A stretch of DNA of 64,000 nucleotides. Source: Rubripirellula obstinata. Lineage in GTDB: Bacteria; Planctomycetota; Planctomycetia; Pirellulales; Pirellulaceae. The notes beneath the pieces were generated by a model. That model did not search any database. It saw nothing but the letters and a program-made list of their open reading frames with translations, and was not told the origin of the DNA. The stretch lies in NCBI RefSeq assembly GCF_001642955.1, contig NZ_LWSK01000012.1, forward strand, positions 24,192-88,191. The letters are read 5' to 3'. A program made the position numbers and the translations under genes. This document shows, piece by piece, positions 3,710 through 40,680 of the stretch (positions are counted from its first letter, which is position 1; the number at the start of each line of letters is the position of its first letter).

Positions 3710-6700
3710 ATGGATCAGGATCGTTCAGTTCTTCCGAAGTTAATTCGTAATTCACGTCTTGGCTCAAAAGTGAAGTCAAAGCAGGCCAAGCGACGTGGGC
3801 GTAAACCGCGTTTGGAAAGGCTGGAAAGCCGGCAACTTTTGGCGGCTACGCTGGCGGTCAATTCGGGGGATTGGACCGATGCGAGTACGTGGAGTAACGG
3901 TGTGCCGACCGAGTCCACGCGGGCCATCATTTCGCAGGGCCGTACGGTCACGCTGAACAGCACCAATCATGTCGCCGAAGAAATTGTCGTTCACGGTCAA
4001 TTGGTGGCCGAAGAAGGTGCCGCCGGTTCGCCGGACAAGTCGCTGACGACTCGCTGGATTCACGTCAACAGCGGCGGCGTCTTTCAAATTGGTACCGAGA
4101 ACAATCGATACGACAACCATGACTTTGTCCTGACGTTGACGGGAACGAACCCCAATGCCGACCACGTCGTCGAAACGGCGATGGGGACGATGCAGATCAA
4201 CGACAATGATGGTTTCTTAATGACCGGCGGTGGCGGCAGCCTGCAGTTCTTCGGTGACGAAAAACTCAGCTTCACCAAATTGGCAAGAACGGCCTTTAGG
4301 AATTCAACGACGATCACCGTTGAAAATGTGATTGAACGCAACTTTGATGGCACCACCTCCGCTGCATCCGATGGTTCTCTGACTGGATCGAATGCTTGGG
4401 AAGTCGGTGATGAAATTGTGATCGCTAGTTCTTCGTACGACTACAGCGAAGAGGACGCGCGAACGATCACAGCGGTGAATGTTCAAGGCAGCGAAACGGT
4501 GCTGACGTTGAACCAACCGCTAAGCTATCGACACTACGGCCAGATCGAAACTTACAAGAACGGCCAGGAAAGCATTGACCTTCGCGTCGAAGTGGCACTG
4601 CTGAACCGAAGCATTGTGGTGCAGGGCACTCAGGATACTGACAGCCGGTTTGGTAACCGCGCCCGATACGGCACCACCGCGGGCAGGAACCTTGGCATCG
4701 GTGCCCATGCGATGTTCATGACGGGCTCGGGCAACATCACGATCGACTCAGTCCAATTTGACAAAATGGGGCAAACCGGTCAGGTCGGACGCTATCCGAT
4801 TCACTGGCACTTGGGCGCTGACCGATCCGGCGATGTCTTGCGTAATTCAAGCGTCACCAATTCCAACAACCGTGGCGTGATCGTTCACGGGACACAGGGC
4901 CTGTTGATCGAAGGCAACGTGCTGCACGACATTCATGGGCACGGCCTGTTCATGGAAGACGGTGCGGAATTCGACAATCAATTTCTTAGCAACATCGTGT
5001 TGGGAATTCACAAGGTTGGCGGCAATAGCCGTAACGATCCGTTCATCATTCCCGGCGTCACGCGAGGGAGCAACGGTCGGGTCAACGACGATGCACCGCG
5101 AAACGGAAACGGCGAGAGTTCGCATGATACCGGGCAGCAAGTCTTTGAGCGTTTCCTAAGTTCAGCGGCTTACTGGATCACGAACCCGAACAACACCTGG
5201 ATCGGCAACATTTCGGCGGGATCCGAAGGAACTGGGTTCTGGTTCATTTTGCCTGACCGCGTGATCGGGCACTCGCGCGATACCGGTTTGTACAACGGGT
5301 ACAATCCCTCAAAGCAGAACCTGGGCATCTTTGACCACAACACGTCGCACTCGTCGCCGGTTGGTTTGACGTTTGATCGCGGGTCAGACATTCGTGGCGG
5401 CGGCAGCGTCGGTTACACGCCGCCGCAAAGGGCGACGTTCAATGAGTTCACCGGCTACAAACACAATGGGACGGCGGTCTACCATCGCGGTAACAATGTC
5501 ACCTTTGCCGGCAGCCAGTTTGCCGATGTCAAAAGCGGCTCCTTCAATACGTTCTCGCAAATCGAACGCGATGTTTTGTTTGTCGGACACAGTCGCGGCA
5601 ACGCTTCGCTGTCTACGCTTGTGGGTGGCTACAAACTTTACGATGGTCCGGGGCAGATTATTGGAGCTCACTTTGCAGGATTCGCTGGCGATAACGCGCA
5701 CACGTTCCTGAATACCGGTGGGGCGCACAAGCACGCGATGACGCGGGCCGAGGGAATCACGTTTGAAGATGACGGAACCGCCGATAACCTGTCGATTTAC
5801 TGGCAGGATGCGGGCGGCTTCACCAACGACTCGCCCGCCAATGCTGCTGGACGGCCCGATGCGATTTCGGGAATTGTTCTGGACGTGGACGGGTCGCTGA
5901 CGGGGCATGCCGGGGGCGGCGCGGGGCATGTTCTGACGCCGCGAATTGATTATTACCGCGATTCGACCGATATCGCTCCGGCTGGCTGGAATGCCTACAT
6001 CAGTGACGACCGGTTTGGCTATCTGCAGTTGAACACCATCAGTGGTGCGGGCAATTTCCCCTACTTTGATGTTCACAATGGTGATGACAATCGATTGAGG
6101 GTCAACCGCCGGAATATCACGCGGCAGCGGCTTTACACCAAGCTGAACGCGGGTGACTACACCTTCACGTTTACCCAACCTGTGCCGTCGGACGGGTTCA
6201 CGGTCCGAATGGATGTGTTACGTGGCGCAGAACCGGGTGATTCCAGCGTCTATCGTTTCAAAGGGGTCGGCACGGATTACGAACCAACCTCTGGCGCAGA
6301 AAGAACGACGCTGCAAGCGCTGCGCAATTCGTCATCGAATGCGTATTTCCGCGACGCGGGCGGTGATCTTTGGATGAAAGTGTTCGAATCGGGTGCCACG
6401 ATCCGCATCAGGCCCACCAACGAACCGCTGCCATCCAACGATGCCGAGGTGGAAGCACTGGTCTTGGTCAATGCTGATAACGAAGAAGACATTATCGAAT
6501 TGGTCGATGGCTTGGTGATCAATCTAACGACGTTGCCGACAGAGAATTTCAATGTACGCGCGGCCACCAACGAAACCACTCAAAGCGTCGGATTCAATTT
6601 AACTGGACCGTCGGCACACAGTCAGACCGAAAGTATCGAGCCGTATTCGCTTTTTGGTGACGCCAACGGAGACTTCCAATCGGAACCCTTGCTGGTGGGC

Positions 6701-8887: not shown

Positions 8888-8930
8888 CAATTGTTTTAAA
8901 ACGACTCAGGAGGTTGCCGACGACGTGCCC

Positions 8931-9120
8931 GTAGCTGATCCCGCCAGGGTTCAGTCGAGCTCAATCCGTTTGTCCCGGAAAACACGAATTAGTTCGTTCA
9001 ACCGCGTGCGCATCGCCCCGCGCGTTTCGTTCCGGGTAGACGCGCGGGGCGACGCCCACGCGGTTAAACAATTTAGAAACTCTTTACGGCGTTGCAGTGA
9101 AGCCTGGCGGGATCAGCTAC
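8931..9120. repeat. GTAGCTG-family palindrome interrupted by a second palindrome
   Basis: The left arm GTAGCTGATCCCGCCAGGG at 8931-8949 and the right arm CCTGGCGGGATCAGCTAC ending at 9120 match the copies at 13319 and 40713. Those copies are 70 bp long, whereas here the arms are separated by about 110 extra bases. The extra bases contain another GC-rich hairpin: AACCGCGTGCGCATCGCCCC (about 9000-9019) pairs with GGGGCGACGCCCACGCGGTT (about 9046-9065). It begins 44 bp after the stop of the 3710 gene and may act as a terminator. The 8888-9231 spacer holds nothing else I can name. Confidence 0.8.
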
Positions 9121-9231
9121 GTTTTCAAATAGTCTCTTAGCTGGAAGACACCATTTCGGGAGTCGATGATCGTTTTTTTCTGAGATAATCAGCCGATACA
9201 ACCTTTAATACTGGATGACGCGAACAACAGG

Positions 9232-12200
9232 ATGGCAAAGAAATACTCGACGATCGAAAGACTGGCCGGACTGGTTTACCGCAAAGCTAATCGCCGCAAT
9301 CGAGCTGGCATTCGAGCTGGCATTCGAACCAGCGCCAGCGGTCGAAGAGGCTTGCGATTGGAGTCGCTGGAAAAGCGTCAATTGTTGGCGGCCAGCGTGA
9401 TTGCGCCTGTCGATGTTGAATTGCAAAGTGTCGAAGATTCCTACTTGCAATACGGCACGAATCAAAATGACGGAAATGGTGGCAGTCACTGGTACAACGG
9501 ATCGGGGCTTACCGATGCGTCGATTGTCGAAACGGGTGATCCGATTCCCGCCGCATGGCCCGAACATGTTTCGGGCAACCATAGAAATCGCGTTTCTAGA
9601 ATTCGCGACGCAGCAGAATTCAATACGCTGACGTTTGATCTGGGGGGCACCTTTGATGTCAGCGGCATGGTGCTTTGGAATAGCACCGAAGATGGGCAAT
9701 CCGATCGCGGGTTTGAAAACACGGTCTTATCGTATTCCACCGATGGTGGTTTGACCTTCACCGGCAGTGACGCATTGACGTGGACTCAGCGCATCGATGA
9801 CGAACCCGCCAACGCGAATCCGTCAACGACGTTTGGCCCCGAGGTCGAAATGCTGCCAGCGGTCGTTGCCGGTGTGACGCATGTCCGGATGGTCGTCGAT
9901 AATTTCTCACCCGGCGGTTCGGACAAGATCGTGATGGCGTCTGAGCTTCGCTTCATTGGCGACGAAACGCCGTCTCCCGTAATTGTGGTCGCACCGGTCA
10001 GAGTTGAACTGACCAGCGTCAATGATTCGTTTCTGCAGGACGGATCTGCAAACGCCAATTGGTATAACGGATCGGGCTTGTCAGATGCCTCGATTGTCGA
10101 AACCGGAGATTCAATTCCGGAAGTTTGGCCAACGCATGCCGCAGGTCATGATGTGGAACGCGTGACCCGAATCCGCAATGCGAATGAATTCAACACGCTG
10201 ACCTTCGATTTGGGCGAACGATTAGATTTGATCGGTATGGTGTTGTGGAATGGATCCGAGCCCAATCGTCCCACCCGTGGAATCGAAAATACAGTCTTGT
10301 CTTATTCGACCGATGGTGGGCTGACGTTTAGCGGCAGCGACACATTGACTTGGATGAATCGCAGCGAAGCAACGGTCAACCCAAACGGTCATCTTCCCGA
10401 AGTCCAAATGTTGGACGCGCCGATACGGGACGTCACCCACGTTCGCATGGTCGTCGATAACTTTTCCGACAACGGAAGCGATCGGATCGTTGCAGCCGAC
10501 GAAATCCGATTCCTGGGTCAAGGACGCAGCGTGCCAACGGTCGCCAATCTCGCTGGTCGTACCGTCAACGATCAATTTGATCGTCGTCAAGGCATCGAAG
10601 GCTCTCGAGCGCTGGACTTAACGGTCACGTTGTCGTCGCGGAACTTTTCCGGTGCTCCGATCTCGTTTGATTTGGAAGACTTGGGTACGGGAACGGCAAC
10701 CGTCGGGTTGGATTACCAGCCGATTCCAGCCGGAGCCAAAATTACTGTTCCCGTCGGTGCGATCTCCGGCAGCTTTCGTGTCGACGTGTTTGACGACGCT
10801 TTGATCGAGCCCACCGAAACGTTGAACGCTCGGATCTCTAACTCATCCAATTCAAGTTCCGTGATCGGTCAAGCCACGACGACGGCGACCATCCGGGACA
10901 ACGACGTTGCCGGAATCACGTTGATCGGTGCGGACAACTTGCAGGTTTCCGAAAGTGGTCAGACCGATTCATATACCGTCCAACTAGACACCATCCCCAC
11001 CGGCGCGGTCGAGATCACAGCGACTGCTGATTCCGAAACTGAAATCAGCACCGACGGCGTCAACTTTGCCGCTACACAAATCTTGACCTTGACCGACACC
11101 GCGCCGCAAACCATCACGGTTCGGGCGGTTGACGATCTGGTGATCGAAGATACGCACCAAGCCACGATCACTCATGCCATTACTGGGACCGTCGTCGATC
11201 CCAACTATCCGGACGTCAAGGTCGAAGACCTGTACACGCAGACCGGCGACGATCCGTTGACGTTCCAGGATTTGCTTGACAGCGGCGCGTTACCGCGAGG
11301 TTTCAATTCAAACGGCGGAGTGCTGGGGTCGGCGATTGATGTCAACAACGCGGCCTTTGAACAGGGCGTCAACGCTGGCATTCCCATTCCGCAAAACATT
11401 CGACTGCACACGTTGGGGCATTCGCAGTTGTTGCGACCGGACTTTGACAATTGGACGCGTTGGTACCAGGAAGACGGCAACACGCAAATCTATCGGTTGT
11501 TTGAGGGCGAGGAAAATACGCACAGCGACCGCTTGCTGGCTGCTCGAACGGAAACGCACACGACCGGAGACTTTTCCCATGGAGTCTGGAACGAATTTTC
11601 GGCCAGCTACATGATCATGAAGCCGGAAACGATGTCGATCTTTCAATCCTTTCAAGGCGGGTTCCAGTGGTCGGTTCACATCGGGATGGACGCCGATGGC
11701 AGCGTCAACATGACTCATCGCCGGGTGGGAGATGACATCCACGTCAAGGTTCCCTTGGGCGTGGACATGATCGGCAAACGATTCGATGTCTTGATTCGCG
11801 ACGATGGTTTCAACTACCAGGTTTACTTCAACGGCGAATTGATGGGGACGGGTTTCTGGCAAAGAGATCCAACGTCGAGATTTTCTTTTCGTTGGGGGCC
11901 GTATGTCGGTGAAAAGCCGGTCACTCGCGACACCATGTTGTTTGTCACAGGCGTGACGATGCGAGCAGACGCAGCCGACCCGATCGGTTTGGTTCCCTAT
12001 CGGCCCGCGACAACCGCACTTTCGATTGCCGATGCGTCGGCCGAAATCACCGACAACGATGATGACACTCAGTTGGACTTTGGCGACGCGCCTTTTTTAA
12101 CGCTACTATCCGATGATGGTGCGCGGCACTTTGCCGGCGGTCCTCAATTGGGCAGCTCGCGTGATGTGGAAAGCGATGGTTCGCCTTCGCCAAACGCCGA

Positions 12201-13089
12201 TGGCGATGGCGACGACGAAGACGGCGTCATGTTTGGCGGAATCAACGTCAACGGCAGCATGGCGGCGGTCAACATCGAACTGCCCGAAAACAACGAAGGC
12301 TTTATCGATGCCTGGATCGATTTCAATGGCAATAGAGTCTGGGAAGCGTCCGAGAAAATTCTCGATAGGGTTTTTGTTGATCAGTCGATGCAGACGCTCA
12401 ATTATGACCTGCCCATCGTTATGACGACTGGCGACACGTACGCTCGCGTGCGTCTAAGCAGTGCTGGCGGACTTGGTCCCACAGGTTTGGCTGCCGATGG
12501 CGAGGTCGAAGATTACCGGGTCAGCATCGTTGATCCGCCACAGGTCGAAAGCATTGTGGTCAACGAAGGCAGCAGCCAACGGTCATCACTCGATTCGATT
12601 CGAGTCACCTTTGATGGAAGTGTTGTCATCAATCAAACCGACGGCGATCCTTTCCAAATTACTCAAGCAGGATCAACCGGTTCGCTGACGCCACTCGCAT
12701 TCATCCGTCAAGTCAATGACAAGACGGTAGTTGATTTGACGTTTGCCGCCGGTGATTCGTACGTCAACAATTTCGGAAGCCTGCTGGACGGTGACTATCA
12801 ATTGAAAATCGATGCATCGCTCGTCACTTACCAGGGCGTCGAACTGGATGGCAATCGCGATGGATCGGCGGGTGACGACTACGAGATGTCGGCAACCGAC
12901 GGACTGTTCCGAAAATACGGCGACGCTGATGGCGACGACTCGGTCGGCCTGAGCGATTTCGCGACCTTCCGCAGCGTGTTTGGCACGTCATCAAACAACG
13001 CGGCTGATTTATCGGGCTTGGATTCCGACGGAGACGGCGATATCGGTCTAACCGACTTCGCGGCCTTCCGAGCAAATTTTGGAAGGTGA
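9232..13089 (+). CDS. Giant discoidin/Calx-beta/jelly-roll exoprotein with GEVED and dockerin
   Basis: A 1285-residue protein with the export motif LRLESLEKRQLLAA at residues 41-54. Two tandem discoidin-like domains (about 57-243 and 253-430) share the pattern NGSGL, VETGD, LWN and THVRMVVDNFS. Two Calx-beta-like repeats follow (436-560, 561-653; ATIRDNDVAGITL). At about 659-916 lies a concanavalin-like jelly roll with RWYQEDGNTQIYRLFEGEEN and FSFRWGPYVG. The layout resembles polysaccharide-lyase-type jelly rolls, but I cannot assign a PL family. GEVED (948-1098), the unnamed beta domain and a dockerin (1222-1285) end the protein. A 12-bp tandem duplication in the export region encodes RAGI twice. 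Its closest relative here is the gene at 19499, which adds a CBM6-like domain. Function inferred: binding or cleavage of an extracellular glycan. Confidence 0.92.
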   Translation: MAKKYSTIERLAGLVYRKANRRNRAGIRAGIRTSASGRRGLRLESLEKRQLLAASVIAPVDVELQSVEDSYLQYGTNQNDGNGGSHWYNGSGLTDASIVETGDPIPAAWPEHVSGNHRNRVSRIRDAAEFNTLTFDLGGTFDVSGMVLWNSTEDGQSDRGFENTVLSYSTDGGLTFTGSDALTWTQRIDDEPANANPSTTFGPEVEMLPAVVAGVTHVRMVVDNFSPGGSDKIVMASELRFIGDETPSPVIVVAPVRVELTSVNDSFLQDGSANANWYNGSGLSDASIVETGDSIPEVWPTHAAGHDVERVTRIRNANEFNTLTFDLGERLDLIGMVLWNGSEPNRPTRGIENTVLSYSTDGGLTFSGSDTLTWMNRSEATVNPNGHLPEVQMLDAPIRDVTHVRMVVDNFSDNGSDRIVAADEIRFLGQGRSVPTVANLAGRTVNDQFDRRQGIEGSRALDLTVTLSSRNFSGAPISFDLEDLGTGTATVGLDYQPIPAGAKITVPVGAISGSFRVDVFDDALIEPTETLNARISNSSNSSSVIGQATTTATIRDNDVAGITLIGADNLQVSESGQTDSYTVQLDTIPTGAVEITATADSETEISTDGVNFAATQILTLTDTAPQTITVRAVDDLVIEDTHQATITHAITGTVVDPNYPDVKVEDLYTQTGDDPLTFQDLLDSGALPRGFNSNGGVLGSAIDVNNAAFEQGVNAGIPIPQNIRLHTLGHSQLLRPDFDNWTRWYQEDGNTQIYRLFEGEENTHSDRLLAARTETHTTGDFSHGVWNEFSASYMIMKPETMSIFQSFQGGFQWSVHIGMDADGSVNMTHRRVGDDIHVKVPLGVDMIGKRFDVLIRDDGFNYQVYFNGELMGTGFWQRDPTSRFSFRWGPYVGEKPVTRDTMLFVTGVTMRADAADPIGLVPYRPATTALSIADASAEITDNDDDTQLDFGDAPFLTLLSDDGARHFAGGPQLGSSRDVESDGSPSPNADGDGDDEDGVMFGGINVNGSMAAVNIELPENNEGFIDAWIDFNGNRVWEASEKILDRVFVDQSMQTLNYDLPIVMTTGDTYARVRLSSAGGLGPTGLAADGEVEDYRVSIVDPPQVESIVVNEGSSQRSSLDSIRVTFDGSVVINQTDGDPFQITQAGSTGSLTPLAFIRQVNDKTVVDLTFAAGDSYVNNFGSLLDGDYQLKIDASLVTYQGVELDGNRDGSAGDDYEMSATDGLFRKYGDADGDDSVGLSDFATFRSVFGTSSNNAADLSGLDSDGDGDIGLTDFAAFRANFGR

Positions 13090-13200
13090 CAATCTTTTTG
13101 TCTCATTCCTCCCTGCAATACGAGCGCCACCAATCACCATTTCAACGACAGTTCGACAAAAAAATTGTTGTCAAAAAAATGGGACACTTCTCGGTGAACG
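13087..13200. repeat. MITE-like element, copy 1
   Basis: About 114 bp are nearly identical to 13672-13793. The shared core is CCTCCCTGCAATACGAGCGC, then CACCAATCACC, then TTCGACAAAAAAAT and GGGACACTTCTCGGT. The ends carry complementary arms (GACAATCTTTTTGTC against GACAAAAAAATTGTTGTC). No coding sequence is inside. Confidence 0.75.
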
Positions 13201-13318
13201 TCAACAAGCGGTCGGATCGAAACTTACGATGTTGACCAACATTCGCTTGGTCCCGTGCAGTTTGTAGGATGGCAAAGATGGAGTGGGAGAGCGTACACGC
13301 GAAGAGCTTGTGTAAAAC

Positions 13319-13388
13319 GTAGCTGATCCCGCCAGGGTTCAGTCCACGATCGGATTCAGCTCGACTGAACCCTGGCGGGATCAGCTAC
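13319..13388. repeat. GTAGCTG-family hairpin (inverted orientation)
   Basis: The left arm is GTAGCTGATCCCGCCAGGG and the right arm ends GGCGGGATCAGCTAC; the stem is about 26 bp and near perfect, with an 18-bp loop. The flanks (GTAAAAC before, GCAGGTCGCCGG after) are the reverse complement of the flanks of the copy at 40713. The conserved unit is therefore longer than the hairpin, and this copy lies the other way round. Confidence 0.85.
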
Positions 13389-13793: not shown

Positions 13794-13806
13794 CATCAAA
13801 AACTCA

Positions 13807-13906: not shown

Positions 13907-13961
13907 ACAGCGGTGGCGTTCACCGAGTAGTTTCGGTTTTTTCGAAAAATTCAAGCAAGAT

Positions 13962-14200
13962 CCAGGGAATTGCCGGCGATGCTAGTGGGCGAAATGGGGC
14001 CACATGACTCGATTTCGCTCCCCCTCTGTTGATCAATAATTTGTGCGGCAGATGTGGGTACAAAAGCGTTTTTGGGGCGTTTACTAATTGTTCGCTCGGT
14101 GGCATGCGGCTTTCGGCAAGCTGCTGATTGGCTGGCGACTGAATTCGCGGCGCACCCCTGAGCACACTTTTCTTTTCCTTCTTCTTCGACAGATTTGTCC
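13962..14200 (+). promoter_or_regulatory. Upstream region duplicated at 24215-24442
   Basis: About 225 bp directly before the gene at 14201 match the DNA before the paralogous gene at 24443 almost base for base. Examples are GACTCGATTTCGCTCCCCCT, GATCAATAATTTGTGCGGCA and the pyrimidine tract CTTTTCTTTTCCTTCTTCTT shortly before the ATG. Promoter and leader were therefore duplicated with the gene, and conservation suggests function. There is no obvious Shine-Dalgarno sequence before the ATG. Confidence 0.7.
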
Positions 14201-23993: not shown

Positions 23994-24008
23994 CTGTCTG
24001 TTTGTGCC

Positions 24009-24149
24009 GTGCGAGTCAGTGTGTTCGGGTCGTCATCGAGCGACCCGCATGCATTGGCAGGTTTGGATTTGGATGGTGATGGCGGTATCGGTCTTACCGA
24101 TTTCGCGGCCTTCCGAAGTAACTTGGAACGTGACGGGAATCAATCGTAG
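24009..24149 (+). pseudogene. Relic of a dockerin-ending gene
   Basis: The reading RVSVFGSSSSDPHALAGLDL continues into DGDGGIGLTDFAAFRSNL and stops at 24147-24149. This is the second half of the dockerin that ends all seven giant proteins (compare SVFGTSSSDANAMSGLDSDG and DGDIGLTDFAAFRANFG). Nothing upstream in frame belongs to a giant protein: the preceding codons run through the palindrome at 23933-23993. It is most simply the 3' end of a deleted eighth giant gene, or a failed recombination product. A GTAGGCCGTA hairpin starts within its last codons. Confidence 0.8.
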
Positions 24150-29334: not shown

Positions 29335-32300
29335 ATGGGTCGATTTCGATCGCGTTTCTTTAAGAACCTCCACAACGACGTCATCGGTGGCGTGGCCTCT
29401 CGTTCAGGAAGGCTCAAATCGAAAGATCGCCAGAAGCGTCGCTTGAAACTGGAGTCGCTGGAAAGCCGACGACTGCTGACAGCAACGCTTGCGGTTTCAT
29501 CGGGCGATTGGAGTGATGCTAGCACGTGGAGCAACGGGGTCCCCAACAATTCGACTCGGGCGATCATTGGCCAGGGCAAAGCTGTCACGCTGGACAGCAC
29601 CAATCATATAGCGCGTGAAGTCGTGGTTCATGGGCAATTGATCGCCGAAGAAGGCCCGGTCGGGTCAGCGGACAAGTCATTGACGACTCGTTGGATGCAC
29701 GTCAACAGCGGCGGTGTGTTCCAGATCGGAACGCCAACCAATCGGTATGACAACCATGACTTTGTGTTGACGCTGACCGGCACCAACCCCAATGCCGACT
29801 TCACCGTCGAAACGGCGATGGGGACGATGCAGGTGATGGACAATGATGGCTTCTTGATGACTGGTGGTGGAGGCAGTTTGCAGTTCTATGGTGACGAAAA
29901 ACTGAGCTTCACCAAGTTGGCAAGAACTGCCTGGAAGAATTCAACCAGTATCCGAGTGGAGAACGTGATCGAACGCAACTTCGATGGGACGACATCGGCT
30001 GCGTCGGACGGATCGCTCGTTGGTTCGCAAGCTTGGGAAGTCGGTGACCAAATTGTGATTGCCAGTTCGTCCTACGATTATACCGAACAGGATGTTCGAA
30101 CCATCACGGGCGTCAGCGTGCAGGGCAGCGAAACGGTGCTGACGCTGAATTCACCGACGTCACATCGGCATTACGGCAATATCGAGTATTACAAGGATGG
30201 CGAGCTGAGCATCGATTTGCGTGCGGAAGTTGCGCTGCTGAATCGATCGATCATTGTTCAAGGCACACAGGATACCGACAGCAACTTTGGCAATCGCGCC
30301 AGATATGGAACCACGTCTGGAAGGAACCTGGGCGTCGGCGCGCATGCGATGTTCATGCCTGGGTCGGGAACGATTACGATCGATTCAGTCCAGTTCGACA
30401 AAATGGGACAGACCGGAATCCTTGGTCGCTACCCGGTTCACTGGCACCTTGGTGGCAATCGTACCGGTGATGTCATGGTGAATTCCAGCGTCACGAATTC
30501 CAACAACCGCGGCGTGACCATTCACGGAACGCAGGGTTTGGTGATCGAAGGCAACGTGCTGCATGATATCCACGGGCACGGCATGTTCATGGAAGACGCT
30601 GCGGAATTCAACAACCAATTCCTCAGCAACATCGTCTTAGGAATTCATAAGGTCGGTGGGGCCAGACGAAACGATCCCTTCATCGTTCCTGGGATCACAC
30701 GTGGTTCCAACGGTCAGGTCAATGGCGAAGCACCGAGGAACGGTACCGGCGAAGGTTCTCACGATACCGGTCAACAGATCGACAAACGCTTTTTGAGTTC
30801 GGCCGCCTACTGGATCACCAATCCGAACAACACTTGGGTCGGCAACATTTCGGCGGGCTCCGAAGGAACGGGCTTCTGGTTTATTTTGCCCGACCGCGTG
30901 ATTGGACTTTCCAGAGACACCGGGCTGTATAACGGGATTGATGCTGGTGAAACCAATCTTGGCGTCTTTGATAATAACACGTCGCACTCGTCACCGATTG
31001 GGTTGACCTTTGATCGCGGTGCAGACATCCGCGGCGGCGGCAGCGTGGGTTACAACCCGCCGCAAGTCGCGGTTTTCAACGACTTCACCGGCTACAAACA
31101 CGATGGCACCGCGGTCTACCATCGCGGAGGCAACGCGATTTTTGACGGCAGCAAGTTTGCCGACGTTGCCAATGGATCCTTCAATACGTTCTCGCAAGAA
31201 GAGCACAACATTCTCTTTGTGGGCCACAGCCAGGGGAATGCCGATCTTTCACACGCAGTTGGCGGTTATCGATTGTACGATGGCCCCGGTCGCATCATCG
31301 GCGCCCACTTTGCAGGTTTCGCCGCCGACAACGCCTATACGTTCTTGAACAACGGGGGAACCGATAAATATGCGATGACTCGCGCCGAAGGCATCACGTA
31401 CGAAGATGACGGGACGGCTGACAACTTGCAGGTCTACTTCCTGGATAACTCGGGGATCGCCAACAGCTCGCCCGCCAATGCCGCAGGACGACCTGATGCG
31501 ATTTCTGGAATTGTTCTGGATGTCGATGGTTCTTTGACAGGCCACGCCGGCGGTGGCGTGGATCATGTGCTGACGCCCAGGATTGACTTCTACCGCGATT
31601 CCACCGACATCGCTCCGCCAGGTTGGAACGCGTACATCAGCGATGACCGCTTCGGCTATCTGGAACTCGATACCGTCACCGGGTCGGGAAACTTTCCGTA
31701 CTTTGACATCGAAAACGGCGATGGCAATCGGTTAAGAGTCAATCGTCGAAACATCTCGTCGCAGCGTCTGTACACCAAACTGAATGCCGGCGACTACACC
31801 ATCACCTTCATTGATCCTGTTCCTTCAGACGGATTTAGCCTCAGGATGGATGTTCGTCGCGGCCAAAAGCCCGGGGACTATACGGTCTATCGTTTCAAAG
31901 GCATCGGTGAGGACTACAAACCGACCTCAGGCATTGACAGCGTCTCGCTTCAAGCCATGCGTGACGCGACATCGAATGCCTATTTCCGCGATGGCGCAGG
32001 TGACTTGTGGATGAAGGTGTTCGAATCGGGTCGCCGGATCCAGATCCGACCCACCGACGATCCGTTGCCCACTAACTTAGAGATCGATGAACTGTGGCTT
32101 GTCGACGCCGATAGCAATGAAGACTTCGATATTGACGTTGCACCTTTGACCGACAACATGGTCATCAACCTCACGGCGCTGGGAATCGAAGGGGTCAATG
32201 TTCGAGCGACCACCAATATCGCCGCGGGCAGCATCGGGTTCGCGTTGAGCGGACCGTTGTCGCACAACCAGACTGAAAGCATCGCGCCGTACGCGTTGTT

Positions 32301-34563
32301 CGGAGATCAACAAGGCGACTTCAACGCGGAAGTCTTACCCGTCGGGCAGTACACACTGATCGTCACTCCGTACCCGAGTCCAGGTTTGAACGGTACACCA
32401 GGAACACCGGTCACGGTGAACTTTGAAATCACCCAACCGGTGCAGTTGCCGTTTCTCGACCAAACCGTTCAAGACGGTACTATCATCAAGGCGGAAGAGT
32501 TTGATTACGGCGGACAACAGATAGCTTACTTCGATACCACCGCTGGCAATTCCGGCTCCGGCAATAACGCGCGGCCAGACGAAGACGTTGATCTCAATAG
32601 TTCGTCGATCCTGGTCAGCCAGATCATTGACGGAGAATGGCTCGAGTTCACTCGCGATGTGGTTCCGGGTGTGTACGACATCGATGTCAACGTGAATCAA
32701 TTCTCGGTTCAAAACCCGCCCAAAGGCATTCGCGTGTTGATCGCTGAAAATGCGTTCTCAACCTCGTTCACGGAGCTTGGGTCCGTCGAGATCCCTGACC
32801 CGGATGTTACCGGAACGAATTACGTGATCGAGGGCGTCGACCTGACATCGTGGGCCGGCCCGGGGCGAGTGTTCCGCACCGAGTTCTACGCTCCTGCCCC
32901 AGACATCGTGATCGCTCCGGCGAGCGCAACGTTGCAGGTTGAGAACGGGTCGTATATGGACAGTCCCTATGGTGCAAACGGGGAAAACTGGTTCAATGGC
33001 TCCGGCTTGACGGACCCAGCCGGATCGACGGACGCCTCGGATGTTGAAACCGGTGATCCGGTACCCCTGACTTGGCCGCAGCATCAAACCGGAAACGACC
33101 GAAATCGCGTGTCCCGAATTCGCAATGCTGTTGAGGAAAATACGCTGACCATCGATCTGGATGGAACGTATGACCTCAGCGGGATGGTGCTTTGGAACAG
33201 CACCGAGGGTGGACAGACCGACCGAGGTTTTGAGAACACCGTCTTGTCTTACTCGACCGATGGTGGAACCAACTTCAGCGGAAGTGACTCGCTGACCTGG
33301 ACACAACTTGCCAGTACCGGCGGTTACTTCCCGCCCGAAATCAACATGCTAGATGGAGTTCGCGAAGGAGTCACCCACGTGCGGATGGTGGTTGATAACT
33401 TTTCCCCATCAGGTTCTGACAACATCGTGATGGCTTCGGAATTGCGTTTCATCGGTAAAGGAACGGCGGCAGCGGGGGCTAACTTGGCTCTCAATTTTGA
33501 TTCGCTTCAATTTACCAACGCACAGGACATGGACTTTGGCGATGCCCCGCAGTCCTACGGAACGCTGCTAACTGACGATGGTGCCAGACATGCCGCGGTT
33601 GGCCCGCAGTTGGGTGCCAATCGTGACACCGAAAACGATGGCATTGCAACGCCAGACGCCGACGGTGACGGCAGCGACGATGACGGCGTCATGTTTGGCG
33701 CGATCAATGTGGGCGGCACCATGGCCGGGGTCAACATCAAGTTGCCCACGGACACCGAAGGCCAGATCGATGCGTGGATCGATTTTAATCGCAACGGATC
33801 CTTTGACGCTGGCGAGAAAATTATTAACGACTTAAGCGTCAATGAATTGGAACAAACGATCAACTACATGATCCCGACTGATATCCCCGGCGGCATCACC
33901 GTCGGTGACACGTATGCACGGGTTCGCATCAGCAGTGACGGCGGTCTAGAGCCGACCGGTTTCGCCGCTGATGGCGAAGTCGAGGACTATGTGGTCAGCA
34001 TCATTGAGCCGCCGCAAGTCGAAAGCATTGTAGTCAACGAGGGACACTCACAGCGTTCGTCACTCGACTCGGTGCGCATCACCTTCGATACGGTGGTCGA
34101 CATCAATCAGGTCGATGGCAATCCGTTTGAAATCACTCGCGCCGGATCGGGGGGAACCTTGATGCCGATGGTGTCGATCGACGACACGTCGGGCAAGACG
34201 GTGGTGGATCTAACGTTTGCTGATAGCGAAACTTTTGTGACCGATTTCGGAAGTCTGGTTGACGGAGACTACCAGTTACGAATTGACGCGACGCTGGTGA
34301 CCGATCGCTGGGTCCAGCTTGATGGCAACCGCGATGGATCGGCCGGCGATGATTACGTAATGTCGGCCACCGACGGACTGTTCCGAATGTATGGCGACGC
34401 CGATGGCAGCAAGTCGGTCGGTCTGACCGACTTCGCCGCCTTCCGCAGCGTGTTTGGAACGTCATCAAGCGACGCTAATGCACTGTCCGGTTTGAACAGC
34501 GATGCTGACGACACCATCGGCCTGACGGATTTTGCAGCCTTCCGAGCCAACTTTGGGAAGTAA
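29335..34563 (+). CDS. Giant G8/beta-helix (CEMIP-like) exoprotein, second copy
   Basis: A 1742-residue paralogue of the gene at 3710. I prefer the ATG at 29335 (CAGG nine bases upstream) over an in-frame TTG at 29314. The export motif LESLESRRLLTA is at residues 39-50. A G8 domain (about 51-190, GDWSDASTWSNGVP) leads into a beta-helix with GRYPVHWH (364-371) and HDIHGHGMFMEDAAEF about 40 residues later. A CBM6-like domain (1046-1189), a discoidin-like domain (1191-1374), GEVED (1400-1558), the unnamed beta domain and a dockerin (1679-1742) follow. The catalytic half is colinear with 3710 over about 1350 residues, but the last 350 residues belong to the cassette type of 14201 and 24443, a sign of module exchange. 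The role is probably the same as 3710, perhaps on a related glycan. Confidence 0.93.
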   Translation: MGRFRSRFFKNLHNDVIGGVASRSGRLKSKDRQKRRLKLESLESRRLLTATLAVSSGDWSDASTWSNGVPNNSTRAIIGQGKAVTLDSTNHIAREVVVHGQLIAEEGPVGSADKSLTTRWMHVNSGGVFQIGTPTNRYDNHDFVLTLTGTNPNADFTVETAMGTMQVMDNDGFLMTGGGGSLQFYGDEKLSFTKLARTAWKNSTSIRVENVIERNFDGTTSAASDGSLVGSQAWEVGDQIVIASSSYDYTEQDVRTITGVSVQGSETVLTLNSPTSHRHYGNIEYYKDGELSIDLRAEVALLNRSIIVQGTQDTDSNFGNRARYGTTSGRNLGVGAHAMFMPGSGTITIDSVQFDKMGQTGILGRYPVHWHLGGNRTGDVMVNSSVTNSNNRGVTIHGTQGLVIEGNVLHDIHGHGMFMEDAAEFNNQFLSNIVLGIHKVGGARRNDPFIVPGITRGSNGQVNGEAPRNGTGEGSHDTGQQIDKRFLSSAAYWITNPNNTWVGNISAGSEGTGFWFILPDRVIGLSRDTGLYNGIDAGETNLGVFDNNTSHSSPIGLTFDRGADIRGGGSVGYNPPQVAVFNDFTGYKHDGTAVYHRGGNAIFDGSKFADVANGSFNTFSQEEHNILFVGHSQGNADLSHAVGGYRLYDGPGRIIGAHFAGFAADNAYTFLNNGGTDKYAMTRAEGITYEDDGTADNLQVYFLDNSGIANSSPANAAGRPDAISGIVLDVDGSLTGHAGGGVDHVLTPRIDFYRDSTDIAPPGWNAYISDDRFGYLELDTVTGSGNFPYFDIENGDGNRLRVNRRNISSQRLYTKLNAGDYTITFIDPVPSDGFSLRMDVRRGQKPGDYTVYRFKGIGEDYKPTSGIDSVSLQAMRDATSNAYFRDGAGDLWMKVFESGRRIQIRPTDDPLPTNLEIDELWLVDADSNEDFDIDVAPLTDNMVINLTALGIEGVNVRATTNIAAGSIGFALSGPLSHNQTESIAPYALFGDQQGDFNAEVLPVGQYTLIVTPYPSPGLNGTPGTPVTVNFEITQPVQLPFLDQTVQDGTIIKAEEFDYGGQQIAYFDTTAGNSGSGNNARPDEDVDLNSSSILVSQIIDGEWLEFTRDVVPGVYDIDVNVNQFSVQNPPKGIRVLIAENAFSTSFTELGSVEIPDPDVTGTNYVIEGVDLTSWAGPGRVFRTEFYAPAPDIVIAPASATLQVENGSYMDSPYGANGENWFNGSGLTDPAGSTDASDVETGDPVPLTWPQHQTGNDRNRVSRIRNAVEENTLTIDLDGTYDLSGMVLWNSTEGGQTDRGFENTVLSYSTDGGTNFSGSDSLTWTQLASTGGYFPPEINMLDGVREGVTHVRMVVDNFSPSGSDNIVMASELRFIGKGTAAAGANLALNFDSLQFTNAQDMDFGDAPQSYGTLLTDDGARHAAVGPQLGANRDTENDGIATPDADGDGSDDDGVMFGAINVGGTMAGVNIKLPTDTEGQIDAWIDFNRNGSFDAGEKIINDLSVNELEQTINYMIPTDIPGGITVGDTYARVRISSDGGLEPTGFAADGEVEDYVVSIIEPPQVESIVVNEGHSQRSSLDSVRITFDTVVDINQVDGNPFEITRAGSGGTLMPMVSIDDTSGKTVVDLTFADSETFVTDFGSLVDGDYQLRIDATLVTDRWVQLDGNRDGSAGDDYVMSATDGLFRMYGDADGSKSVGLTDFAAFRSVFGTSSSDANALSGLNSDADDTIGLTDFAAFRANFGK

Positions 34564-35043: not shown

Positions 35044-38000
35044 ATGAGACGCATGGGTGACCGGTTTACGAAAAAAAATCAGTTGTCGCACAGAAACCGA
35101 ACTCAAGCACGCTTGCGGCTGGAGACGCTTGAAAAGCGACAGTTGTTGGCTGCCGAGGTAATCGCACCGGTCTCCGCCGGCTTGGATAGTGCTGGCGATC
35201 CCGATTGGAAGCTTGAATACGGTACTCCAGCCGGTAGCCAGTGGATTGATGGGTCTGGATTAGAAGATCCGACCATCGTCGAAACCGGTGATCCGGTACC
35301 CGCGCAATGGCCGGAACATGTTTCGGGCAATAGCGCCCAACGTGTCTCTCGAATTCGCAGCGCCCCTGAATTTAATGAATTAACCTTCGACCTCGGTGGC
35401 ACCTTCGACCTTAGCGGGATGGTGCTTTGGAACAGCACCGAGATTGGGCCTGCGGGATTGCAGACCGACCGAGGTTTCGAGAACACAGTTCTTTCCTACT
35501 CAACCGATGGCGGAGCCACGTTTACCGGCAGCGATACGCTGACTTGGTCTGAGAGAAATCATCCGGACGACACATCGACGAACCAGGGTAACAATCCAAC
35601 TTCGCCGAAAACGTATGCCCCCGAAGTTCAGTCGCTTCCCAGCACGGTCGAAGGAGTCACGCATGTGCGGATGGTGGTGGACAATTTTTCGGCGGCTGGT
35701 GCGGACAACATTGTCATGGCGTCGGAAATTCGATTCATTGGCGAAGATGCATCTCCACCGACCCCCGGTGCATATTTGGAAGCCGGCGGCTTGGTGGTCA
35801 TGGAGACCGAAAACACAGACACCGTTAATATCGGATTGTGGCAGGAAGAGACTCAAATTTCCAACTACACCGGCGATGGTTACCTTCAATTTTTTGGCAA
35901 CACTTATCAGAACGGTCCGCCGAATTCGCCGATCGAGTACAAGTTTCGGGTGGAGACACCGGGGTTGTATTATTTGCATCTGCGATCGGCAAAAGAGAAC
36001 AGTGCTGATCCCACTCGCAACGACATCAGCAACGACATTTACGTTCGCGTCGAGGGCGATTACACCGCCGGATCTGGCCCGCACGACAGCCACTTGGATA
36101 ATGCCTCGCTAAGTTTGTTGCAGAGTGACACCAAGTTCTTTGGTGGCGGGTTAAACACTTTTAGATGGGATTCAGGTGCACAGCTCGATCCGGGTGGACA
36201 TGCCAACAAACGGGTTGCTCTGTACAACTTTAAAGCCGGCGAAGAATACACCTTAGTGGTTTCCGGCCGATCGAAGTTCTACAGCATCGACCGAATCGTT
36301 TTTCGGCACGAAGATACCCCTGTCAATTTGGCCCAGAATCTGAACACACCCGAGTCGCAACGAGCCGCTGGCGAAGATCTCATCGACGGCAATGGCGACG
36401 TTCAAATCTCGGGCGAGCTGAAGCAATGGCACAACACCACACTGACTCTGGACGGCCCCGGCGCTAGTGAAACCGGTGCGGTCAATCCGTTCACCCAGTA
36501 CCGCATGAATGTGACGTTCACGCATCCCGCCAGCGGATTGACGTACACCGTGCCGGGATACTTTGCAGCCGATGGCGACGCGGCCAACACCGGCGCAACC
36601 AGCGGCAACAAGTGGCGAGCGCACTTATCCGCTGACGAAGTGGGGCTATGGAACTATTCAATCTCGTTCCGCACCGGAAACAACGTGTCGGTCAATGACA
36701 GTCCGACTGGTGGTTTTGCCCTTGCTCCCTACGATGGCATCACGGGCAGCTTTACGATTGGGGCGACCGACAAGACCGGCGACGACTTCCGCGGCAAGGG
36801 GCGTCTTGAATACGTCGGGGAACACTATCTGCAATTTGCGGGCACGGGCGAGTACTTCATTAAGCAAGGCCCCGATGCGCCCGAAAACCTGTTGTCCTAC
36901 GAAGACTTTGACGGACCGTTTAAGACCGATGGCGAATACAACCGAGGCGCGTTCCCCAACGAAGCTGCGTCTATCAAGTCTTGGCAACCACACCAGCAAG
37001 ACTGGAACGCGGGTGATCCCAGTTGGGATGGCGGCAAGGGAACCGAACTGATCGGGGCGCTGAACTATCTGGCTTCCGAGGATCTCAATTCGGTTTCGTT
37101 TTTGACGATGAACATCATCGGCGACGACAAAAATGTCTTCCCGTACTTGGACTACGACGAGCGTTTCCGAATGGACGTTTCGCGGTTGGACCAGTGGGGG
37201 ATCGTCTTTGAGCACGGAACTGAAAAGGGACTGCACCTGCACTTCAAGACTCAGGAAACTGAGAACGATCAGTTGCTTGATGGAGGCGACTTGGGGCCAG
37301 AGCGTAAGTTGTATTACCGTGAGTTGATCGCTCGGTACAGCCACAACTTAGCGATGAATTGGAACTTGGGCGAAGAAACCACCAACACGGTACAGCAAGC
37401 CAGGGATTTTGCTGAGTATTTTTACGACAACGATCCCTATCGCCACAACGTGGTCCTGCACAGTTATCCTGCGCAAAAAGAACAAAGGTACGGGGACCTG
37501 TTGGGCAATCAATCCGAATTGACCGGCTTGTCGTTGCAGACAAGCAAACCCGACTTCCGCGAAGTCCATGACGACACGGTGGAATGGGTCAACCGATCGG
37601 CAGCCACGGGGAAAAAATGGGTGGTCGCGGTCGATGAACCCGGCGACGCCCGAGCTTCGTTGCGTCCAGACGCGGACCCGGGCAATAGCCATGTCGATGG
37701 CCGAAAGAACGCTTTGTGGGGAACGTTGATGGCCGGCGGTGCCGGCAATGAATGGTATTTCGGTTACGATTATGCCCACTCGGATTTGACGGCGGAAGAC
37801 TTCCGTAGCCGCGATAACTGGTGGGACTACACGCGGTACGCCAAGTCGTTCTTTGAAGACTTTGACATCCCGTTTTGGGACATGGTCAACGACAACTCGA
37901 TCAGCACCGCCAGCGATGACTACGGTTTCTACCAAGAGGGCGAAGTCTACACGGTCTATTTGAAAGACGGCGGCACAACGAGCTTGGACCTTAGCGCCGC

Positions 38001-40680
38001 GCCGGCGGGTGAAACGTTCAACGTCAAATGGTTTGACCCGCGTAACGGCGGCGTCTTGCAAGACGGATCAGTGACGCAGGTTGTTAGCGGCGGATCGCCA
38101 GTGTCGCTGGGCCTACCGCCCAACACGCCAGGTCAAGATTGGGCGATTTTGGTGACTTCTGAGTTCTTTGTGCCTAGCGTGGACATTGACGGAGTCTACT
38201 TGGTCAACGCCGACAACGATTCCGATATCGTTACGATGACCGATGGCATGGTAATCAACTTCGCCACACTTGATTCAGCTAGCTTGAATATTCGAGCCAC
38301 CACCGATGGGCCTGCGGGAAGCGTTGGGTTTGAACTGACCGGCGCAACGACCCACAGTCAATCGGAAACCGTCGCCCCCTACGCTTTGTTTGGCGACGAA
38401 AGCGGTGACTACAACGCCGGTTCGCTTTCAGTCGGCCAGCACACCTTGGTCGTGACTCCGTATTCCGAAGCAAACCTTGGTGGCACGGCGGGCGATTCGG
38501 TCACGATCCATTTCGTGGTTAGCGATGGCAACACCAACAGCCCGCCAACCGGATCGGTGACGATCGCCGGCACGCTGACCGAAAACCAAACACTGACGGC
38601 ATCGAACACCTTGGTCGATGCCGATGGACTTGGAGCAATCAGTTACCAGTGGCAACGCGATGGCGTGAATATCTCCGGTGCAACCAGCAGCACTTACTCG
38701 CTCGGCGCGGCCGATGTGGGATCGCTGATCAGCGTCGTGGCTGGCTACACCGACGGCAGTGGCAAGTTGGAACAGGTCAGCAGTGCGGTCGCTCAACCTG
38801 CGACCTATTCGTTTGCCGCTCGCACCGACTTTCCCGTCCTGGATGCGGGCCAGGTGGATTACTACGCCGATTTCGGTAACGATGCTCTGGGGATCAACGC
38901 CGCGATCATCGCCAACCGCGCCGGATTCGCTCGCGCCTCACACACCTTCACCGGTGATTCGGGTGTCTACCCCGTGCGGATCACAACGCTGACTGAGGAA
39001 GACGGCGAATCGACGTATCGCCTGTTGGTCAATGGCACCGTGGTGGGAACCTACCAGAATCCGTACATCGGGCCAGGTTCAGCACTCGACTTGCAGCCCA
39101 ACCAGCATGTCTGGAACAATGTGGCCTTGAGCAACGGTGATACGATTTCGATCGAGTCCAATGCTGACACCAACGGTGAAATTCCTGAAGGCGATGGAAC
39201 CGCTTGGGCACGGGGCCGTTGGCGCTCGCTTGAACTGTTCACGGGCGTTGGGCCGGTGGTCGCCGATAACAGCGATCCATCGATCAACGGATTGTTCTTA
39301 CTCAATGCCGACAGCGACAACGACATCGTTTCGCTGACTGACGGATCGACCATCAGTTCGGCAACGCTGGGCACGACCAATTTGAATGTTCGTGCGACCA
39401 CCACCAAGCCAGTGGGAAGTGTTGGGTTCGAATTGACTGGGGTGGTGACGCGTAGTCAGGCCGAAACCATTTCACCCTACGCTCTGTTTGGTGACGCAGC
39501 GGGTGACTTCAATGCCGGCGCATTGCCGGTCGGGCAATACACCCTAGTCGTCACCCCGTATTCGGCTGGCGGACTCGGCGGTACCGCTTACACAACAACG
39601 ACGGTCAATTTTGAAATCGTCGATGCCGATTTGGATTTCGGCGACGCACCCTTGTCCTACGGTACCCTTGTTGCCGATGACGGAGCCCGGCATGCGGCCA
39701 TTGGGCCACAGCTTGGGGCAACGCGCGACTCGGAGAGTGACGGCACGGTTTCGGCAGGTGCCAACGGCGACGGCAACGACGAAGATGGAGTGATGTTTGG
39801 CGGAATCGGGGTCAACAACCTGATCGCCGCGGTCAACGTGGAATTCGGCAATGTGAACGAAGTTGGCACAGCGAAAGTCGACGCCTGGATTGATTTCAAT
39901 CGCAATGGAGCCTTCGAGCTTGAAGAAAAGATCCTTGACGACATCACGGTCAATCAAGCCATGCAGACGATCAATTACGACATCCCACGCGATCTGCCCG
40001 GCGGCATCACCGTGGGTGACGCCTACGCTCGAGTCCGCATCAGTACCGCGGGCGAGCTAGGGCCAACCGGTTTTGCCGCTGATGGTGAAGTCGAAGACTA
40101 TGTTGTCACCATCGCCGAGCCTCCCAAGGTTGAAAGCATCGAAATCAACGCAGGCAGTTCGCAGCGATCCTTAGTCAATTCAATCAAGGTAACGTTTGAC
40201 CAAGTCGTGGACATTGATACTGAAAATGGCAATCCGTTCCAATTGATCTACGACGACGAAAATGGTGAAACAGTCGCGATCCAAGCACCGTTGATTGGTC
40301 AGACTGGCGAAAAGACAACCGTCGAATTGACTTTCGATCCGTCCACTTCCTATGTCACCGATTTCGGCAGTTTAAAGGATGGCCACTATCGATTGACGAT
40401 TGACCCATCATTGGTGACGGCGTCGGATGTCCAACTCGATGGTAACGGCGACGGGATCGCGGGCGACGCCTACGTGATGACGGCATCCGATGGACTGTAC
40501 CGCAAGTATGGCGATGCTGACGGCACCGACTCAGTCGGGCTTACCGACTTTGCAACCTTCCGCAGTGTGTTTGGAACCTTATCAGACGACCCGCATGCAC
40601 TGTCAGGTTTAGACGCTGATGGCGATGGCGAGATCGGCCTGACCGATTTTGCTGCCTTCCGTGCCAACTTTGGCAATTGA
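35044..40680 (+). CDS. Giant discoidin/DUF5060/TIM-barrel exoprotein with GEVED and dockerin
   Basis: A 1878-residue protein, the longest in the window. The ATG follows GGTGGAGA, a good ribosome binding site. The export motif LETLEKRQLLAA is at residues 26-37. A discoidin-like domain (about 38-236) and a beta-sandwich resembling a carbohydrate-binding module (243-420) precede a DUF5060-type domain (453-550) and a TIM barrel (583-953). The barrel has MNWNLGEETTN, a plausible active-site strand, and VVAVDEPGDA. DUF5060 normally sits in front of glycoside-hydrolase-like barrels. After the barrel come a small beta domain, two copies of an Ig-like module with LVNADNDSDIV / LLNADSDNDIV and ALFGD motifs (the two G8 proteins carry a similar one), an Ig-like tandem repeat, GEVED (1530-1694), the unnamed beta domain and a dockerin (1816-1878). 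Its activity is a guess: hydrolase of an unknown glycan. Confidence 0.9.
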   Translation: MRRMGDRFTKKNQLSHRNRTQARLRLETLEKRQLLAAEVIAPVSAGLDSAGDPDWKLEYGTPAGSQWIDGSGLEDPTIVETGDPVPAQWPEHVSGNSAQRVSRIRSAPEFNELTFDLGGTFDLSGMVLWNSTEIGPAGLQTDRGFENTVLSYSTDGGATFTGSDTLTWSERNHPDDTSTNQGNNPTSPKTYAPEVQSLPSTVEGVTHVRMVVDNFSAAGADNIVMASEIRFIGEDASPPTPGAYLEAGGLVVMETENTDTVNIGLWQEETQISNYTGDGYLQFFGNTYQNGPPNSPIEYKFRVETPGLYYLHLRSAKENSADPTRNDISNDIYVRVEGDYTAGSGPHDSHLDNASLSLLQSDTKFFGGGLNTFRWDSGAQLDPGGHANKRVALYNFKAGEEYTLVVSGRSKFYSIDRIVFRHEDTPVNLAQNLNTPESQRAAGEDLIDGNGDVQISGELKQWHNTTLTLDGPGASETGAVNPFTQYRMNVTFTHPASGLTYTVPGYFAADGDAANTGATSGNKWRAHLSADEVGLWNYSISFRTGNNVSVNDSPTGGFALAPYDGITGSFTIGATDKTGDDFRGKGRLEYVGEHYLQFAGTGEYFIKQGPDAPENLLSYEDFDGPFKTDGEYNRGAFPNEAASIKSWQPHQQDWNAGDPSWDGGKGTELIGALNYLASEDLNSVSFLTMNIIGDDKNVFPYLDYDERFRMDVSRLDQWGIVFEHGTEKGLHLHFKTQETENDQLLDGGDLGPERKLYYRELIARYSHNLAMNWNLGEETTNTVQQARDFAEYFYDNDPYRHNVVLHSYPAQKEQRYGDLLGNQSELTGLSLQTSKPDFREVHDDTVEWVNRSAATGKKWVVAVDEPGDARASLRPDADPGNSHVDGRKNALWGTLMAGGAGNEWYFGYDYAHSDLTAEDFRSRDNWWDYTRYAKSFFEDFDIPFWDMVNDNSISTASDDYGFYQEGEVYTVYLKDGGTTSLDLSAAPAGETFNVKWFDPRNGGVLQDGSVTQVVSGGSPVSLGLPPNTPGQDWAILVTSEFFVPSVDIDGVYLVNADNDSDIVTMTDGMVINFATLDSASLNIRATTDGPAGSVGFELTGATTHSQSETVAPYALFGDESGDYNAGSLSVGQHTLVVTPYSEANLGGTAGDSVTIHFVVSDGNTNSPPTGSVTIAGTLTENQTLTASNTLVDADGLGAISYQWQRDGVNISGATSSTYSLGAADVGSLISVVAGYTDGSGKLEQVSSAVAQPATYSFAARTDFPVLDAGQVDYYADFGNDALGINAAIIANRAGFARASHTFTGDSGVYPVRITTLTEEDGESTYRLLVNGTVVGTYQNPYIGPGSALDLQPNQHVWNNVALSNGDTISIESNADTNGEIPEGDGTAWARGRWRSLELFTGVGPVVADNSDPSINGLFLLNADSDNDIVSLTDGSTISSATLGTTNLNVRATTTKPVGSVGFELTGVVTRSQAETISPYALFGDAAGDFNAGALPVGQYTLVVTPYSAGGLGGTAYTTTTVNFEIVDADLDFGDAPLSYGTLVADDGARHAAIGPQLGATRDSESDGTVSAGANGDGNDEDGVMFGGIGVNNLIAAVNVEFGNVNEVGTAKVDAWIDFNRNGAFELEEKILDDITVNQAMQTINYDIPRDLPGGITVGDAYARVRISTAGELGPTGFAADGEVEDYVVTIAEPPKVESIEINAGSSQRSLVNSIKVTFDQVVDIDTENGNPFQLIYDDENGETVAIQAPLIGQTGEKTTVELTFDPSTSYVTDFGSLKDGHYRLTIDPSLVTASDVQLDGNGDGIAGDAYVMTASDGLYRKYGDADGTDSVGLTDFATFRSVFGTLSDDPHALSGLDADGDGEIGLTDFAAFRANFGN

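Follow-up and report, generated by a model that had tools for sequence, protein, structure and literature searches.

In cellulosomes, varied catalytic bodies carry a common two-loop C-terminal module. Planctomycete extracellular enzymes bearing dockerins have been described in the proposed "Planctosome" of freshwater Planctomycetes, which comprises cohesins, a lamin-tail anchor and peptidases in the proposal as outlined there (PMC6461901). GEVED fibrillar adhesins are mosaic proteins made by domain shuffling (PMC10952558). We analyzed a 64,000-nucleotide stretch of Rubripirellula obstinata (contig NZ_LWSK01000012.1, positions 24,192 to 88,191; hereafter the window), in which an array of seven giant genes, g1 to g7, occupies positions 3710-40680. 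The array shows varied catalytic bodies, a mosaic architecture, and a common C-terminal tail of about 340 residues, composed of GEVED, an immunoglobulin (Ig)-like domain, and a dockerin-like end, in all seven proteins. By sequence comparison, the tails move independently of the bodies. We regard it as plausible, though not quite probable, that the tail is an exchangeable, locus-wide surface-attachment tag with a partner other than cohesin; the attachment is the part that we infer.

A common tail on seven giant proteins

The list of open reading frames (ORFs) placed seven consecutive genes of 1285-1878 codons on the + strand (1725, 1285, 1749, 1461, 1567, 1749, and 1878 codons for g1 to g7, respectively), in agreement with the earlier note on this DNA. 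Comparison with the paralogues g5 and g1 indicated that g3 and g6 start better at the in-frame ATG codons at 14201 (1747 aa) and 29335 (1742 aa), not at the TTG codons at 14195 and 29314, respectively. The genes are as follows.

3710..8887, + strand: g1, 1725 aa; export-type motif, G8, CEMIP beta-helix, domain X; tail from 7877
9232..13089, + strand: g2, 1285 aa; two X domains, weak Calx-beta, PL7-like jelly roll (via homology to g4); tail from 12073
14201..19444, + strand: g3, 1747 aa; PA14, GH10, CBM35; tail from 18416
19499..23884, + strand: g4, 1461 aa; two X domains, jelly roll (21431-22306 modelled), CBM35; tail from 22826
24443..29146, + strand: g5, 1567 aa; PA14, Calx-beta, GH10, CBM6/35; tail from 28112
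29335..34563, + strand: g6, 1742 aa; G8, CEMIP beta-helix, domain X; tail from 33529
35044..40680, + strand: g7, 1878 aa; domain X, DUF5060, Collagen_bind_2; tail from 39631

By their middles, six of the proteins pair up (g1/g6, g2/g4, and g3/g5), and g7 stands alone. The four kinds described in the earlier note (G8/beta-helix, jelly roll, PA14-GH10, and DUF5060) were confirmed, the jelly roll of g2 and g4 being without a Pfam match. GLEYA in g3 and g5 and Calx-beta in g3 were found below the Pfam cut-off only. Domain X, of about 190 residues, is shuffled among the proteins: g2, g4, and g7 carry it at the N-terminus, with two copies in g2 and in g4, and g1 and g6 have it near residue 1190. No peptidase domain was detected in the seven proteins by Pfam.

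GEVED (PF20009) exceeded the Pfam gathering score in all seven proteins. Protein identity among the tails was 62-92% across 325-347 codons, which excludes a likeness by chance and supports the description of common ends with different middles. Two loops were visible by eye in every dockerin-like end, with D or N at positions 1 and 3, D at position 12, and a variable position 5; the Ig-like domain before this end is presumably analogous to the X-module of cellulosomal X-module/dockerin pairs. In an alignment of 22 homologues and 3 window tails (A4), D141/F142/F145 and D174/F175/F178 of the dockerin-like end were invariant in 25/25 tails; another alignment (A3) held 12 of the 22 listed homologous proteins and the window piece. 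Some sister tails in the R. obstinata genome were narrowly above the cut-off of Pfam Dockerin_1, and NCBIfam gave no model at cut-off for the window tail or for the R. tenax tail described below. A terminal acidic stretch, followed by a short sequence resembling (V/I)D.(A/V)(F/L)...L(F/W), was seen by eye in several Pfam-dockerin proteins of R. obstinata (among L108-L122, for example L112, L117, and L122), in the cohesin proteins of L031-L034, and in R. tenax tails, and is possibly a general C-terminal signal.

At the other end, all seven proteins showed by eye the motif (L/I/M/V)E.LE.R.LL among their first ~60 residues, where the sequence is basic; the earlier note had described a LEPR-XLL type export motif there. 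The PF07595 model "Planctomycete extracellular" matched these N-termini with E values from 4.9e-6 to 0.033, above the cut-off in g4 only, and no hydrophobic peak preceded the motif in the seven proteins. The motif has been published as a putative export signal of planctomycetes; of the 20 carriers detected in Tuwongella, 8 were confined to the sodium dodecyl sulfate (SDS)-soluble fraction (PMC8567305). Export via the motif is predicted for the array proteins, and their surface display, which the earlier note had proposed, is likely on the basis of this published signal and fractionation.

Separate histories of tails and bodies

The synonymous divergence (dS) of the paired bodies was 1.4-2.4, versus 0.25 for the tails of g5/g6 and 0.51 for those of g4/g7; these two pairs have catalytic bodies of differing kind. 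At the base level, the tails of g6 and g5 shared 92% identity. A tail tree with 21 members, comprising the 7 window tails and 14 others chosen by hand from homologue lists, contained the clades g5+g6 (99/97), g4+g7 (100/100), and g1+P0033 (95/94), P0033 being a G8/CEMIP protein from another genome, and rejected {g1,g6}, {g3,g5}, {g4,P0004}, and {g7,P0034}. In the simplest reading, g6 acquired a tail of the g3/g5 type. The first 100 codons of g3 and g5 were 93-97% identical, compared with mostly 54-74% beyond codon 200, and the leaders of both genes were also alike, which shows that gene starts were exchanged as well. This leader and two tail remnants outside the genes are listed below.

13979..14200, + strand: g3 leader, 222 bases, 92% identical to the g5 leader (24221-24442)
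23994..24131, + strand: degenerate dockerin remnant in the g4-g5 gap; tblastn 60 bits, the best of 60 base shuffles reaching 26; also matched by profile
43167..43286, + strand: second degenerate dockerin remnant, TAA-broken, directly after the sulfatase stop; 44 bits, the best of 60 base shuffles reaching 25; also matched by profile

Bodies matching those of the array carry another tail in Rubripirellula tenax (G164). Its locus, near the end of a 1.07-Mb contig, consists of GH78, GH106, three sulfatases, and four giant genes with two small genes between them. The giant genes encode a g4-like jelly-roll protein (P0010, identical to ORF G164:C3:1049634-1053386), two near-identical g7 orthologues, and an M60 peptidase. 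The g7 orthologues were 75% identical to g7 over residues 7-1528 (~1,520 residues), and the g7 tail begins at 1530; the jelly-roll protein matched g4 up to 1110, which is the start of the g4 tail. Beyond these junctions, no significant similarity was found between g7 or g4 and the R. tenax counterparts (best E 0.83 and 0.38, respectively). All four R. tenax proteins matched another shared tail of ~345 residues (A6), with 78-85% identity among the three aligned, and Pfam Dockerin_1 was above its cut-off in 3/3 scanned. R. tenax had 8 near-full-length copies of this tail, and the 21 other genomes of the genus had 0. Of four further tail genes in R. tenax, 3 were read, L137 giving no frame. Since the bodies match and the shared tail is unrelated, the window tail is likely to be an exchangeable attachment tag.

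The two R. tenax g7 orthologues stand in tandem (G164:C3:1053456-1066364), each preceded by a near-identical small gene; 1847/1865 of their residues are identical, and 17 of the 18 differences lie within the last 46 residues. The small genes between the array genes appeared PEP-CTERM-like by eye.

Further tail changes were observed among relatives of g2 and g4. The metagenomic protein P0013 was 82-96% identical to g2 through residue 900 (body ~90%), 70% in the next segment compared, and 12-28% thereafter, with 41% over the last 35 residues, and it ends in the R. tenax tail type. P0015, with the window-type tail (type A), was 74-84% identical to g2 across the region where P0013 drops, and P0003 combines a g4 body (~80%) with an end of yet another type. 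On the jelly-roll tree, with tail types assigned by eye on the final 110 residues (15/17 rows labelled, without a shuffle test), there were 5 changes between A and not-A and 7 overall, with several forks open. The earlier note had spoken of exchanged catalytic middles. Its observation that bodies differ and ends are common was upheld; the exchanged parts, judging from dS, the tail tree, and the R. tenax tails, are the ends.

Explanations for the shared tail

The earlier note had proposed a cellulosome-like system, its parts displayed on or docked to a common surface scaffold, and had suggested a genome search for cohesin-like domains; in such docking, the dockerin would bind a cohesin encoded elsewhere in the genome. 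The search was run with Pfam and with a tuned profile, and no cohesin was found in the R. obstinata genome. Pfam cohesin (PF00963) had 0 matches in the R. obstinata genome and none in the six Rubripirellula genomes among 149 family genomes; 41 of the 149 did contain cohesins, indicating that the search works in the family. The tuned profile (A5), built from four same-family loci, gave 0 matches in 22 genus genomes, R. obstinata included, and matched 8/8 cohesin-positive family genomes used as a control, 7 of which were outside profile building. Among the 149 genomes, cohesins were present in 15/46 with the tail versus 26/103 without it (Fisher p 0.43) and in 9/25 with strong tails versus 32/124 without (p 0.33), 16 of the 25 strong-tail genomes having no cohesin match. 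Because the tuned profile found nothing in the genus while its control matched throughout, and tail and cohesin were not associated, cohesin docking in its known form is not supported. Such docking would agree with the two calcium-loop-like motifs in all seven tails, with the occurrence of cohesins in the family, and with weak matches to the solved dockerins 5nrm (E 0.008) and 4u3s (0.016), although the best match was a non-dockerin EF-hand protein, 2jnx (1.8e-4); taken together, we consider it very improbable.

A serious rival, though an unlikely one, is that the tail is a stabilizing cap or spacer whose ends are equalized by neutral gene conversion, which occasionally spreads another cap. 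The conversion seen also at the N-termini of g3 and g5 and the remnant tail pieces between genes fit this explanation. It does not readily account for the aromatic and acidic residues invariant in 25/25 tails, for the renewed presence of a Pfam dockerin in the R. tenax replacement tail, or for one tag common to several body types at two loci. Several bodies sharing one tag per locus in two species are what an address tag predicts; function-free gene conversion predicts part of this. It is distinctly unlikely, in our estimate, that the tail is read by an export or sorting machine, like the tails of the type IX secretion system (T9SS) or PEP-CTERM, without stable docking. The dockerin-like end lay 0-8 residues from the C-terminus in 55/55 tails, retained from 106 proteins examined because the match spans the module, and four GEVED proteins (P0067, P0070, P0109, and P0122) carry a Por secretion tail (PF18962), as a sorting signal would lead one to expect; the same bodies are, however, served by two unrelated tails, and no sorting machine was identified. 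A search for the T9SS protein SprA gave 0 matches in the R. obstinata genome, its control likewise matching nowhere.

At the level of sequence, then, the architecture, the mismatch of body and tail histories, the unrelated R. tenax tail on the same bodies, and the lack of a profile-detectable cohesin can be read directly. The attachment-tag reading would join them as follows. The bodies would be exported through the planctomycete N-terminal motif and would degrade a sulfated rhamnose/uronate glycan. The tail, with GEVED, the Ig-like domain, and a predicted calcium-binding dockerin-like end, would keep the enzymes encoded by the locus together at a single site on the cell surface. By recombining with one another, the long, similar ends would maintain a single tag throughout the array and would occasionally retag the whole array. 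A broader proposal, which we hold to be rather unlikely, is that Pirellulaceae use cohesin-independent addressing. Every glycan-degrading locus would then bear one tag out of a set of unrelated C-terminal Ig/calcium-loop tags, a putative surface receptor existing for each tag, and recombination at a fixed junction could re-address a whole array, with fossil tags as its traces.

Several points weigh against the attachment-tag reading. No binding partner of the tail was found, which leaves attachment as its conditional part; a very diverged cohesin could escape the profile; and gene conversion alone could homogenize long similar ends. Dockerin_1 matched only g4 (15.6 bits versus a cut-off of 22.9) and exceeded the cut-off in 0/7, although the loops of the two-loop dockerin assigned to all seven proteins in the earlier note are visible by eye in each; loop position 5 is S or T in g3-g7, that is, the loops deviate. 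Foldseek gave no match at E 0.001 with the first ~128 residues of the tail, a range before the dockerin part. The CEMIP body tree, from which P0085 was left out for its long branch, permits both g1+g6 and g1+P0033; whichever kinship holds, the g6 tail still groups with the tail of a GH10 protein. As g2 and g4 are old paralogues and not sisters in the jelly-roll tree, their tail split is no evidence for exchange. R. tenax has 8 type-A tail matches elsewhere in its genome, and tail choice therefore looks set by locus, not by species. Partial matches to the dockerin part of this species' array tail occur in 19/22 genus genomes, with 9 such matches in R. obstinata, which also has 27 Pfam-dockerin matches; with the type-A tails of R. 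tenax, these indicate that the tags are not strict species codes. The R. obstinata assembly consists of 307 contigs and P0013 lies on a 5.5-kb contig, so that repeat-internal junctions could be misassembled and an assembly error in a single case is possible; simple collapse of the g5/g6 tails is argued against by the 8% of bases that differ.

Apart from the array, a divergent cohesin gene pair, encoding a protein of ~400 aa and a second protein, both with an export-type start, was seen in four other family genomes (L031-L034, in G111, G130, G053, and G086), and a third cohesin gene lay nearby in G111, G115, G045, and G148. The pair is a candidate minimal planctomycete cohesin system, not found in the genus of R. 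obstinata by our search.

Flanking genes, predicted substrate, and comparison with known systems

Downstream of the array, the following genes were identified by Pfam.

40933..43164, + strand: fusion of a sulfatase and a 3-keto-disaccharide hydrolase domain
43364..46399, + strand: GH2 glycosidase
46537..50049, + strand: GH106 alpha-L-rhamnosidase
50109..51879, + strand: KDPG/KHG aldolase and PfkB sugar kinase, suggesting uronate catabolism

These genes support the glycan-degrading setting given in the earlier note. Together with the PL7-like, GH10, DUF5060, and G8/beta-helix bodies, they lead to the prediction of an ulvan-type glycan. In a structure model search, the jelly-roll middle of g4 was predicted to fold like PL7/PL28 lyases, and its sequence matched PDB sequences at E 0.05 or worse only. 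In the jelly-roll alignment, R123, E125, and Q154 were invariant and Y215 nearly so. Two points weaken the lyase assignment: only 1/5 models was confident (mean predicted local distance difference test score 82 versus 57-63), and the QxH histidine, a PL7 motif, was not among the conserved columns. Foldseek also listed many toxin binding domains for the jelly roll, which have no more than a common fold with it.

The jelly roll was found at E 1e-20 in at least 3 of 241 family genomes, R. tenax among them, a lower bound since at most 10 candidates were scored per genome; the counts from other candidate scorings, with at most 16 or 23 per genome, are likewise lower bounds. By record titles, its relatives (L035-L099) belong to Verrucomicrobiota, Lentisphaerota, other Planctomycetota, Gammaproteobacteria, and Bacteroidota. 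This spread over several phyla, with so few family genomes found, suggests that the lyase candidate spread horizontally. Among the 7/65 loci scanned, rhamnosidases neighbored the jelly roll in L066 and L090 and a sulfatase in L066, L083, and L089; neither was found among the single genes scanned at L079, L088, and L092. The PL7/PL28-like fold and the two marine relatives among rhamnosidases (L066 and L090) make an ulvan-like substrate likely. Judging from the families and the predicted fold, the glycan that the array bodies probably degrade is sulfated and contains rhamnose and uronate, as ulvan does.

Other features were noted around the array. Upstream, 1-852 (- strand) covers the N-terminal portion of a secreted protein; by eye, the final residues of this portion are similar to the start of the g3 GH10 region. 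A PEP-CTERM protein is encoded at 2562-3245 (+ strand). After each of g1, g2, and g7 lies an inverted repeat of ~95 bases that is 82-94% complementary (8880-8973, 13313-13439, and 40694-40788); these repeats are related to one another and are possibly terminators or mobile palindromes. The long g2-g3 gap contains a 118-base direct repeat (91%; 13090-13207 and 13684-13799).

The role of the many giant surface proteins and dockerin-like ends of planctomycetes is unexplained. What is new here is the movement of tails independently of bodies. No publication on such retagging was found in the literature searched, which is no proof of absence, subscription papers being outside the search. The natural retagging of one body with two unrelated tails in two species of a genus supplies matched pairs for testing tail function and a handle for finding the tail receptor. 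If the attachment-tag reading is true, there would be a second means, beside cohesin-dockerin, of grouping enzymes on the cell surface, and also a candidate for a new family of lyases acting on algal polysaccharides.

The g4 middle shares its predicted jelly-roll fold with the PL7/PL28 lyases of alginate and ulvan but differs from them in the missing Pfam match, the weak PDB sequence matches, and the QxH motif, which was not seen. The ulvan/uronate genes of Catenovulum sp. CCB-QB4, as described, likewise include lyases, rhamnosidases, sulfatases, and a 2-keto-3-deoxygluconate (KDG) kinase with KDPG aldolase for uronate, whereas the array enzymes are giant multi-domain proteins sharing a tail (PMC7953866). 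The GEVED fibrillar adhesins resemble the array in GEVED and mosaic architecture; those described have CshA-type heads, while the array encodes enzymes whose anchor-like end is exchanged (PMC10952558). Unlike the Planctosome, the array consists of glycan enzymes, with no cohesin found and no Pfam peptidase domain in the seven. From the cellulosome it differs in that no cohesin was detected in its genome and genus, in its planctomycete-type export motif, and in the unrelated tail that the same bodies carry in another species.
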